This document shows positions 12,166-27,701 of a DNA stretch of 64,000 nt, one piece after another; positions within the stretch are counted from its first letter, which is position 1; each line of letters opens with the position of its first letter. Made by a program: the position numbers and the translations under genes. The stretch comes from Thermoanaerobacterium sp. RBIITD. GTDB taxonomy: Bacteria; Bacillota; Thermoanaerobacteria; Thermoanaerobacterales; Thermoanaerobacteraceae. The notes beneath the pieces were generated by a model. That model worked only from the letters and a program-made list of their open reading frames with translations. It searched no databases and was not told the origin of the DNA. The stretch is from positions 2,865,411 through 2,929,410 of the forward strand of contig NZ_LT906662.1 in assembly GCF_900205865.1 (NCBI RefSeq), written 5' to 3'.

Positions 12166-13863
12166 ATGAGTGCAATATTAGTTCCCATGTTTTACGAGTT
12201 ATCAGTTTTGATAACGATAGCATTTATTATATCAAGATTACCGCTTTTTAAAAATCTCATTATAGATAGAAGCATTAATTTATATCATAAGATTATCTTG
12301 TCAATTATTTTTGGATTATTCGGGATCATTGGAACATATACGGGGATTTCTATCGATGGAGCTTTAGCAAACGGAAGAGCGATTGGAGTAATTATTGGAG
12401 GACTTTTAGGAGGACCATTTGTTGGAGTATTATCAGGCTTAATCGCAGGTTTACACCGTTATCTAATAGATTTAGGAGGATTTACTGCAATATCTTGTGC
12501 TATATCTACAATAGTTGAAGCAATAATAGCCGGGTTTTTATCTTTTAAATTTAAAGGTGCAAAAAATAAATTTTTATTTGCATTTACTACTGGATTATTA
12601 AATGAAACATTGCAGATGATAATTATATTACTTACAGCAAGACCATACACAAAAGCTTTGCACTTGGTTAAAATAATTTGGCTACCAATGAGCTTTGCTA
12701 ACTCCCTTGGAATTGGAATATTTATATTGATAATAGAAAGTATATTTATTGAGAAAGAAAAAATTCTTGCTAATCAAGCACTGGTTATAACAGAAATAGC
12801 AGATAGAATGATGAAATATTTTAAAGATGGCTATAATGAGACATCAGCATTATCGGCTGCAAAAATTATAAAAAAACTTACCGGTGTCGATGCTGTGGCA
12901 TTTACAGATAAAGAAAAAATTCTTGCTCATGTAGGGATTGGTAATGACCATCATAAATGTGGTGATAAACTTCATACGCAGATCACTAAAAATGCTATAT
13001 CTACGGGGCGCATAAAAATTGCGCAAACAAAAAATGAGATTGAATGTGACAATCTTAGATGTTCTCTTAAATCAGCAGTTATATCCCCAATTTACAAAGG
13101 AAAAGAAATAGTTGGAGTTTTTAAAATGTATAAAATCGAAGCATACGCAATATCTGATATAGATGTTAAGCTTGCTCAAGGACTAAGCAGGTTAATATCG
13201 ACACAACTTGAAATTCATGATATAGAAAATAAAGAAAAACTTCTTGATAAGGCTAGATTCAAAGCATTACAGGCACAGATTAATCCGCATTTTCTATTTA
13301 ATTCTTTAAATACTATTATGTCATTATGTAGAACAAAACCATTAATGGCGAGAGAAGTTTTGTTTAACTTATCATTATTTTTGCGAAGAAATATGGAAAT
13401 CGATATAGATTTAATATCAATTGATAAGGAAATTGATCATGTAAAATCTTTTGTTTATATACAAAAGGCGAGATTTGGCAATAAGATTAATGTAAATTAC
13501 AATATTGAAGATAATCTAAATTTTTATATTCCTCCGCTTACTATACAACCCCTTGTAGAAAATTCAATAAAGCATGGGCTTTTAAAAAGGGACTCTGGTG
13601 GGACAGTGGATATAATAATAAAGAATTATAAAAGAGGATATATGATTACTGTTAAAGATGATGGAATTGGAACAGATGAAGAATATATTAAAAGTATTTT
13701 AAATAAAGATAATAAATGTAATGAAAAGATAGGCCTTGTAAATGTAAATAAGAGGCTTCAAAGCTATTTTGGTTCAGAATCTAGTTTGAAATTTAAAAGT
13801 AAAGTCGGACAAGGGACGACAATTAGCTTTTATATCCCACAAGGAGGCAACTGTAAAAAATGA
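12166..13863 (+). CDS. LytS/BtsS-family sensor histidine kinase
   Basis: A 565-residue membrane sensor kinase. Seen: an N-terminal 5TMR-LYT region of about six membrane segments (to about residue 195) with the family signature NGRAIGVIIGGLLGGPFVG, a GAF-like part (about 205-350), a His_kinase box with QINPHFLFNSLN (phospho-His near residue 375), and an HATPase domain with PPLTIQPLVENSIKHG. LytS-type kinases sense membrane state or extracellular pyruvate. ATG 12166 is chosen over 12145 because AGGGGGT lies between. It overlaps the response regulator by 4 bases (ATGA), showing translational coupling. Confidence 0.93.
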   Translation: MSAILVPMFYELSVLITIAFIISRLPLFKNLIIDRSINLYHKIILSIIFGLFGIIGTYTGISIDGALANGRAIGVIIGGLLGGPFVGVLSGLIAGLHRYLIDLGGFTAISCAISTIVEAIIAGFLSFKFKGAKNKFLFAFTTGLLNETLQMIIILLTARPYTKALHLVKIIWLPMSFANSLGIGIFILIIESIFIEKEKILANQALVITEIADRMMKYFKDGYNETSALSAAKIIKKLTGVDAVAFTDKEKILAHVGIGNDHHKCGDKLHTQITKNAISTGRIKIAQTKNEIECDNLRCSLKSAVISPIYKGKEIVGVFKMYKIEAYAISDIDVKLAQGLSRLISTQLEIHDIENKEKLLDKARFKALQAQINPHFLFNSLNTIMSLCRTKPLMAREVLFNLSLFLRRNMEIDIDLISIDKEIDHVKSFVYIQKARFGNKINVNYNIEDNLNFYIPPLTIQPLVENSIKHGLLKRDSGGTVDIIIKNYKRGYMITVKDDGIGTDEEYIKSILNKDNKCNEKIGLVNVNKRLQSYFGSESSLKFKSKVGQGTTISFYIPQGGNCKK

Positions 13864-25677: not shown

Positions 25678-25777
25678 GCTTAATTTATTTTAATAGTTAA
25701 TTTCCAAAGTTTTTAGGCATTTAATTTTAATTTCTTTGTTCTAACACAATGTTTTAATACCTTCGAAAGCCATAGCA

Positions 25778-26313
25778 TTACATATCGTACATCATTTTAA
25801 CACCTGTAAAACCACCGTAACCAACTATGAATGTAAGCATTTTAGATCTCTCTGATGGATTATTTTCATATTTTGCTTTTTTAAACATATCATGTATTTG
25901 CTTATTTACTATTTCAGCATCTTTTAATGACCAAAGCGTAAATGCCTGTTCTCCCATACCGGGAATGCCAAAATATGCTGGTTCGTCACCACAAAATATT
26001 ACTAGATAATCATAATTGTATTCAGCTGATCCAGAATACAATATTTTTTCTCTGTATCAACTTTATTTATTTCATCCTGCACAATCTTAACGCGTGTATA
26101 CTCTAATGCTTCCTTTAATGAAACCTTTGCACCTGCAGGCTTTATTCTGTTGCTTGTTACTTCATGTAGTTCAGTGAAATATGTCTGATTGTCGTTTTTT
26201 CTATTAGCGTAATCTCTATATCTTTGTTAAGCAAATATTTATCAAGTTTTTGTGCAGCCGTTGCTCAACCGAACCCCTACCTAAAACAATGATCTTCTTG
26301 CTCAGCTAATTAA
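25778..26313 (-). pseudogene. Broken type II NADH dehydrogenase (NDH-2)
   Basis: The minus strand has LSKKIIVLG (start of the FAD Rossmann fold) near 26310, then frame-shifted pieces, then an open run YDYLVIFCGDEPAYFGIPGM, EQAFTLWSLKDAEIVNKQIH and MLTFIVGYGGFTGV, matching the FAD/NADH core of NDH-2. The usual G-x-G-x-x-G motif reads GRGSVE, several frame changes occur between 26040 and 26310, and the last third of the protein is missing. NDH-2 passes NADH electrons to membrane quinones. Next to a Gx transporter and polyprenyl synthase on the other strand, it resembles ndh2 of a FLEET locus. Confidence 0.85.
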
Positions 26314-26394
26314 ACCTCCAGTGTTAAAATTATTACCAACTATGATTGTATCATAATATTCATAAATAAATTATTTTGCCATAATTATTCCACA

Positions 26395-26423
26395 TTGATT
26401 ATAGGTAAAAAAACAAATATAAT
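26395..26423 (+). promoter_or_regulatory. Promoter of the Gx-transporter gene
   Basis: -35 TTGATT (26395-26400), 17-base spacer, -10 TATAAT (26418-26423). The start site would be near 26430, which excludes the long upstream translation start at 26395. Confidence 0.7.
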
Positions 26424-26460
26424 ATCTATGATGCGTTATAATGGATTGGAGGGCATTAAA

Positions 26461-26961
26461 CTGTCAACTAAAAAACTTGTTTATATTTCAATATTAGTAG
26501 CGCAGGCGTTAGTTCTTAATATCATTGAAAATTTTATTCCCGTTCCGGTACCTATTCCCGGGATAAAAATTGGACTTGCTAATATAGTTACTTTAGTAAC
26601 AATTATAATGTTTGGTTTCAAAGCTTCACTTTTTGTTGTTGTTTTGAGGATTTTATTAGCTCAAGTGCTTGTTGGAAATATTTCGGCATTTTTATTTAGC
26701 GTTACCGGAGGAATTTTGAGTGATTGTGTAATGTATTTTGTATATAAAAGGTTAAATAAATATTTTAGCCTTATAGGTGTAAGCGTTTTTGGCTCTGTTG
26801 CACATAATGTAGGCCAATTATTTGTTGCGTCTATAGTGGTAAATAATTTTATGATATTTTCTTATTTACCTGTTTTAATGCTATCTGCAATATTAATGGG
26901 GATTTTTACTGGCCTTGTTGCTAATTTCCTTGATGGATATATAAAAAAACATAGAATATAA
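26461..26961 (+). CDS. Gx transporter family protein (Hpre_diP_synt_I, EetB-like)
   Basis: About 166 residues, five to six membrane segments. Seen: VPVPIPGIKIGLANIVTLVT and NISAFLFSVTGGILSDCVMY, typical of the Gx_transp family once called heptaprenyl diphosphate synthase component I and related to ECF S-components. EetB of flavin-based electron transfer belongs to this group as I recall. The likely start is CTG 26461, 7 bases after TTGGAGGG; ATG 26431 would fall at the predicted transcription start with no ribosome site. Intact, unlike both neighbours. Confidence 0.82.
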   Translation: MSTKKLVYISILVAQALVLNIIENFIPVPVPIPGIKIGLANIVTLVTIIMFGFKASLFVVVLRILLAQVLVGNISAFLFSVTGGILSDCVMYFVYKRLNKYFSLIGVSVFGSVAHNVGQLFVASIVVNNFMIFSYLPVLMLSAILMGIFTGLVANFLDGYIKKHRI

Positions 26962-26983
26962 TTCGAAGTGGTAGGTGTTATTT

Positions 26984-27701
26984 TTGTTTGATAAATATAC
27001 ATTTATAAAGAAAGATATGAAAAAGTAGATGAATTTCTCCTAACGATTGTTAAGACAAATTTACAAACAATAGAAAAAGCTGTTAATGAATTGGTTTTGT
27101 CTGGCGGGAAAAGGATAAGACCGCTTCTTGTCTTAGCGATTGCGAGATTCGGTGAGTACAGTGAAGATATAATTTAAATGTAAGTATTCTGAGATATTTA
27201 AGAAGGATTTATAGAAAAAATGCTTTACTTTTTGCAATAAGCTGTGAGTCAGGTGCTATAGAGGTAAATCTATCAAAGGACTTAATTAGATCTATGAGAA
27301 AATTTGGCTCTAATGTTGGTATGGCGTTTCAGATAGCAGATGATATACTTTATTATGAAGGAAAAGAGAACATTATTGATAAACCTCTTGGCAGTGATGT
27401 TCTAAATGGAATTTATACTTTACCATTGATATACGCACTTAATACAGACTATAAAGATGATATATTAAGTATACTAGCTAAAGTTTAATTAGAAAAAAAG
27501 ATATAAAAGAGATAATAAAAAAATTTAAAAAGAGTGGTGGCATTGATTTATGCTAAAGACCTTGCTTTAAAGTATATAAATAAGGCGGTCAAAATTCTTA
27601 ATATATTGCCTGATTGTGAGCAAAAGGCTTTAATGATAGATATAGCAAATAATTTTTTAAAAAGAAATATTAATTTATTTGATGTGATAAGAAATCTCTG
27701 A
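26984..27701 (+). pseudogene. Broken polyprenyl (heptaprenyl) diphosphate synthase
   Basis: The plus strand has the N-terminal part VNELVLSGGKRIRPLLVLAI interrupted by a stop, then a jump to RKNALLFAISCESGAIEVNL and FGSNVGMAFQIADDILYYEG (second Asp-rich motif), IDKPLGSDVLNGIYTLPLIY, another frame change, and ALKYINKAVKILNILPDCEQ. About 100 residues with the first DDxxD motif are deleted, so catalysis is impossible. The family makes the isoprenoid side chain of menaquinone. It would be the DmkB counterpart in a FLEET-type locus. Confidence 0.88.

Follow-up and report, generated by a model that had tools for sequence, protein, structure and literature searches.

Why does an intact eetB-type gene persist between the remains of two other genes, ndh2 and dmkB, in the genome of the thermophilic, fermentative bacterium Thermoanaerobacterium sp. 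RBIITD? The initial annotation was made from the window, a stretch of 64,000 nucleotides (bases 2,865,411-2,929,410 of a one-contig, 3.40 Mb genome with a listed completeness of 99.99%). It described a broken NDH-2 gene facing away from an intact EetB-type gene and a broken polyprenyl diphosphate synthase gene, and read them as a relict locus for flavin-based extracellular electron transfer (FLEET; EET, extracellular electron transfer). Alignments and Pfam matches recover all three genes in these orientations (Table 1), although the left end of the ndh2 remnant lies about 60 bp beyond the annotated limit of 25778. On one side the three genes are flanked by glnA and an ANTAR response regulator gene, on the other by iadA.

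Table 1. Features of the eetB locus, in window coordinates.
Feature	Position	Strand	Evidence
ndh2 remnant (type II NADH:quinone dehydrogenase)	25719..26305	-	tblastn; DNA alignment with the intact genes of sisters
eetB promoter, sigma-A-type, TTGATT-17-TATAAT	26395..26423	+	10/12 consensus; hexamers identical in 8 genomes
eetB ribosome-binding site, GGAGGG	26448..26453	+	GGAGG unchanged across 8 genomes
Intact eetB-type gene (PF07456, 'Gx transporter'), predicted to be an ECF-S-like exporter of FAD	26461..26961	+	PF07456 E = 6.6e-51
dmkB remnant (polyprenyl diphosphate synthase)	26975..27671	+	PF00348 match, alignment to intact sister genes

The ndh2 and dmkB genes are beyond repair

In seven sister genomes of the same genus (G002-G008), ndh2, eetB and dmkB are all intact at the same glnA-ANTAR/iadA site, which in G008 is interrupted by a contig end; the products are an NDH-2 of 577 aa, an EetB of about 170-190 aa and a DmkB of 322 aa. 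On the grounds of homology and synteny, chance resemblance of the three genes is excluded. A megablast search of plasmids gave no match. Four sisters carry an inserted pair of genes between the ANTAR gene and ndh2 (L025:3093-5713, L026:3154-5767, L031:3246-5839, L027:9509-14021), an ATP-grasp-like protein and an MFS-like transporter (both named by eye only), which is missing from this genome.

The sister NDH-2 is of the long form, with a C-terminal DoxX-like membrane part. The remnant aligns to residues 11-176 of this protein, and this part is joined directly to one that matches residues 554-575 (window 25719-25784), so that a stretch of about 1.1 kb is missing in between; the rest of the frame contains three 1-bp frameshifts and one in-frame stop. 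A functional FLEET needs an intact Ndh2, and a homology search of this genome found no second copy. In dmkB, a 268-bp deletion after about residue 64 takes out the first Asp-rich catalytic motif (residue 85 in the sisters), and three 1-bp frameshifts and one stop are also present, with the longest open piece still matching PF00348 (E = 2.2e-13). The only other polyprenyl synthase in the genome is encoded by a gene common to the family.

Several of these lesions are single-base changes, at least one of them in a poly-A run, as might be expected if assembly or sequencing errors had disfigured functional genes. Base-calling, however, does not explain the loss of about 1.1 kb from ndh2 and of 268 bp from dmkB, nor an insertion of roughly 5 kb in menA (described below); because of the two deletions, both enzymes are dead even if every 1-bp change is a sequencing error. 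The neighbouring glnA, ANTAR regulator and iadA genes are intact, and the assembly is a single contig of near-complete status. We therefore regard errors as an extremely improbable explanation.

Loss of menA extends the damage to the whole quinone arm

In the sisters, menA (DHNA polyprenyltransferase) is intact (314 aa; NF004752 E = 1e-125) and adjoins a small conserved gene and pyruvate:ferredoxin oxidoreductase. At the syntenic place in this genome it is split by the insertion of roughly 5 kb, which contains a two-component system and a transposase, and its first half carries stops and frameshifts. A functional FLEET requires both DmkB and MenA, and here both are broken. In this genome, the gene for electron input (ndh2) and those for the two quinone-tail enzymes (dmkB, menA) are all dead. 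The proposal in the initial annotation that the ndh2 and dmkB losses reflect decay of one pathway is thus strengthened, since menA is broken too.

The final 72 codons of menA, separated from the rest (L040:14017-14232), are 94% identical to the sister genes, and the first half about 70%. This difference suggests that sequence next to the inserted transposase was recently exchanged with a relative.

EetB is intact and is predicted to be an ECF S-subunit

The promoter and frame of eetB had been described as intact, and this holds: the frame is open throughout, and eight genomes share the same TTGATT-17-TATAAT, GGAGG and apparent start codon, with the sequence further upstream drifting. Matches to the promoter consensus at the 10/12 level are no more numerous than in shuffled sequence in this AT-rich region. 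The apparent CTG start (26461-26463), about 8 nt after the ribosome-binding site, is invariant in the eight genomes; translation begins either at this CTG or further upstream, at a leaderless ATG near 26428.

Modelled with AlphaFold (pLDDT 89.4), the EetB encoded in the window has the six-helix fold of an ECF S-component. The highest Z, 15.6, is with riboflavin-binding RibU (163 residues, rmsd 3.2); further ECF S-components give 12-15, and all of these stand well above most unrelated helical proteins. Candidate partners are encoded in the genome, which has four PF02361 (ECF T-subunit) genes, the best of them adjoining two ECF-ATPase-like genes. Listeria EetB binds FAD and is required for flavinylation without external FAD (PMC9973259). 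The best explanation is that EetB is an ECF S-subunit predicted to export FAD for protein flavinylation.

A different function is suggested by the Pfam name of PF07456, 'component I', and by the resemblance of the second gene to HepT (TIGR02748, score below cut-off): eetB and dmkB would then encode a two-part heptaprenyl diphosphate synthase, placed beside an unrelated NADH dehydrogenase and with no electron-transfer pathway involved. We consider this very improbable. Members of PF07456 resemble ECF S-components and are FAD-binding (PMC9973259), in agreement with the fold match obtained here, and the PF07456 gene survives twice without its supposed partner (see below). In family- and order-level relatives, moreover, ndh2, eetB and dmkB belong to complete FLEET-like clusters that also contain EetA, ApbE, MenA or MqnP, and FMN-lipoproteins.

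Substitution rates were considered as proof of purifying selection on EetB and were rejected. The dN/dS of EetB against the sisters is 0.11-0.14 and that of the pseudogene pieces 0.07-0.14, a comparison that has no power, given nearly saturated synonymous sites and similar ratios for the pseudogenes; most of the branch is older than the decay, which is why the EetB values are no lower.

The flavin arm and an Rnf complex are intact elsewhere in the genome

Counterparts of EetA, FmnB and PplA had been noted as missing from the window, and they are indeed located elsewhere. An intact ApbE/FmnB lipoprotein gene (G000:C1:2449842-2450912; PF02424 E = 9e-92) pairs with an intact eetA (G000:C1:2450899-2451264; PF07009 E = 9e-34), 0.4 Mb from the eetB locus. 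There are two PplA-like lipoproteins, one of 153 aa (about 1,436,433-1,436,894), which is half the length of Listeria PplA and matches NF041941 (PplA) with E = 4e-29 but below the cut-off, and one of 162 aa (about 729,266-729,754). Both are intact and have GAT flavinylation motifs, by which they are predicted to be flavinylated; at the sequence level, the genome therefore retains PplA-type surface lipoproteins. A complete and intact rnfCDGEAB operon is also present (about 638,434-643,528; L043 5435-10529), and its RnfG carries TGAT.

The term relict accordingly fits the quinone arm, in which ndh2, dmkB and menA are dead, but not the flavin arm, in which EetB, EetA, ApbE and the PplA-like proteins are intact and which has Rnf present to use it.

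By homology, NDH-2 in the intact sisters would pass electrons from NADH to demethylmenaquinone, built by MenA and DmkB from an externally acquired headgroup, and the quinol would hand them on to covalently flavinylated lipoproteins. With ndh2, dmkB and menA dead, the quinone arm could not work in the present genome. EetB, under its own promoter, would be kept as the only copy of the FAD-exporting ECF S-subunit supplying ApbE, which would still flavinylate RnfG, probably RnfD, and the two PplA-like lipoproteins.

A second, independent loss spares the same genes

In another genome of the genus, G001, ndh2 is mostly gone (a 733-bp deletion plus frameshifts) and dmkB lacks 583 bp, with menA still open. 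Both small FMN-lipoproteins are broken, one being without a signal peptide and having GAI instead of GAT, the other having an in-frame stop; EetB, EetA, ApbE and the rnf operon are all intact. The G001 loss is separate from that in the present genome, since G005 and G007, with which G001 forms a group, are intact (98% support for the split of {G001, G005, G007} from the rest). A shared ancestral loss of ndh2, for which three frameshifts lying within two codons of each other in the two genomes might speak, is rejected by the same split. The poly-A run at codons 35-36 of ndh2 has lost 1 bp in both decayed lineages (window 26202; L027:8538); it is likely a slippage hotspot, and this mutation-prone run explains at least one of the near-coincident frameshifts. 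Frameshifts also split ndh2 in three further genomes of the Thermoanaerobacter group (G014:C1:272762-274490; G015:C1:2508361-2510090; and G019:C23:9101-10833, L133, probably of T. thermocopriae), where decay may be recurrent across the family or the breaks may be sequencing errors.

Common to both lineages is thus the loss of ndh2 and dmkB and the retention of the flavin-export/flavinylation genes and Rnf. Might EetB simply be the last gene to decay, its frame open by chance or because the event is young, in a FLEET that is dying as a whole? The EetB frame is short, and dN/dS does not separate it from the pseudogene pieces. This reading is nevertheless unlikely in our estimation: EetB, EetA and ApbE were spared in both independent losses, Rnf is intact, and the promoter hexamers and ribosome-binding site of eetB are unaltered. 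Under neutrality, 3.8 lesions would be expected in EetB of this genome and 3.0 in that of G001, for which a crude Poisson calculation gives chances of about 0.02 and 0.05, respectively, of a lesion-free gene.

A less unlikely possibility, though still one that we would bet against, is that the main reason for keeping EetB lies not in Rnf but in the two intact PplA-like lipoproteins, which would then have a quinone-independent electron donor. Both lipoproteins have their GAT motifs in this genome, and five sisters keep EetB without any Rnf. G001, however, keeps EetB though both of its lipoproteins are broken. Against this it must be said that G001 has one more FMN-binding protein, of 421 aa, which combines membrane segments at its N terminus with an FMN-binding domain (L148:6404-7669); it is encoded near a two-component system and another small membrane protein, and is possibly a further ApbE client. 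Because the five Rnf-less sisters keep EetB, Rnf is not its sole client, and other flavinylated proteins also matter for its retention. T. saccharolyticum is reported to be without Rnf (PMC12288451). An association between Rnf presence and ndh2 loss in the genus (2/4 versus 0/5; 9 genomes) was considered and dropped, being non-significant and too small to claim.

We conclude with good confidence that the locus is the remainder of the ndh2/eetB-dmkB part of a FLEET-type system, and that EetB is retained most likely because the Rnf complex still needs FAD export. FAD export by EetB and the dependence of Rnf upon it are inferred from homology, the latter also from the pattern of loss. A bolder version, which we regard as unlikely, is that the flavin-export/flavinylation kit was handed from a dying quinone-dependent EET to Rnf twice, independently, and that EET may run without any quinone in this genome, the two PplA-like lipoproteins obtaining their electrons elsewhere, Rnf being one conceivable donor.

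One EetB, probably for two systems

EetB is single-copy across the genus, even where both systems are present (in G008 a contig boundary splits it into two pieces). The order-level relatives G020 and G022 each have an ndh2-apbE-eetA-dmkB cluster next to the same glnA-ANTAR pair, and their only EetB is located away from it; in G022 it was read directly inside the rnf operon (L038). One EetB serving two systems is thus a recurrent state, which explains why EetB outlives one of them. A published comparison of genomes finds eetB colocalised with EET genes and, in 572 genomes of Clostridia, with rnf (PMC9973259). Among the 80 best-matching named EetB loci, which include none from Thermoanaerobacterium itself, EetA occurs in 58, NDH-2 in 25 and Rnf in 24, with NDH-2 and Rnf together in none.

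Two lineages in which the quinone arm has been removed and EetB, EetA and ApbE stay constitute a natural epistasis experiment. The pattern separates a flavin-export module, common to Rnf and EET, from an electron-input module that belongs to EET only, and it points to a direct test of the dependence of Rnf on EetB in Clostridia, for which the literature consulted argues only from gene neighbourhoods.

Relation to known systems

The genus holds homologues of all eight Listeria FLEET products: Ndh2 (39% identity over 615 aa), EetB (44%), DmkB (37%), MenA (49%), FmnB (44%), EetA (28%), PplA (about 40%) and FmnA (45%), the last match being a general EcfT. The likeness to the Listeria ndh2/eetB/dmkB segment drawn in the initial annotation thus extends to homology but not to layout. 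In Listeria (read in L. ilorinensis, L114), ndh2-eetA-eetB-dmkB are co-directional and divergent from pplA-fmnB-menA-fmnA, whereas here ndh2 is divergent from eetB, eetA is paired with apbE, the genes are distributed over at least four sites, and ndh2, dmkB and menA are dead. The PplA-like proteins are also short compared with Listeria PplA, with one recognised FMN-binding domain each. The Thermoanaerobacter/Caldanaerobacter group (L034, L035) has the same families in a single co-directional cluster, ndh2-eetA-eetB-dmkB-apbE-menA with an adjoining FMN-binding lipoprotein gene, in contrast to the dispersed and partly decayed set described here.

Clostridial rnf operons with EetB (PMC9973259; L038) resemble the present genome in having one EetB beside, or serving, an ApbE-flavinylated Rnf, but here EetB sits in the wreck of an EET locus and not in the rnf operon. 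Our literature search found no paper on decay of EetB-type loci and none on Fe(III) reduction in Thermoanaerobacterium. The novelty is the repeated, selective decay, not a new kind of system.

Source of the quinone headgroup

No match to MenD above the cut-off was found in any of 41 genomes; matches in nearly all relatives fall below it and look like superfamily enzymes such as acetolactate synthase. MqnA and MqnD were found in none of the 25 genomes searched. Because these families are absent, the quinone headgroup is probably scavenged from outside, bearing in mind that a family missing from a search does not prove the pathway absent. Lactiplantibacillus plantarum offers a precedent: it is reported to perform EET with an apparatus that lacks headgroup synthesis and needs external DHNA-type quinones (PMC9888254, PMC10746273). 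Its quinone arm works once DHNA is supplied, whereas that of the present genome is destroyed. The pattern of loss fits the idea that EET reliant on scavenged headgroups is easily lost.

A module of UbiD, an MqnP-like prenyltransferase, UbiX and an NMT1-type substrate-binding protein was observed in four relatives: L051:5458-10834 (G007), L146:1-4471 (G022), L147:2-4450 (G020) and L039:2033-6492, with UbiX at 13145-13711 (G037). It includes ABC ATPase and permease genes where the locus extends far enough, and it is joined to the EET cluster in G020, G022 and G037. Neither MqnA/MqnD nor MenD above the cut-off was found in G007, G020 and G022, nor MenD above the cut-off in G037, where MenD only was searched for. 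Our literature search found nothing on an import module of this kind; from its gene content, with late futalosine-pathway enzymes but not the early ones, the module may take up a naphthoate-type quinone precursor and complete it.
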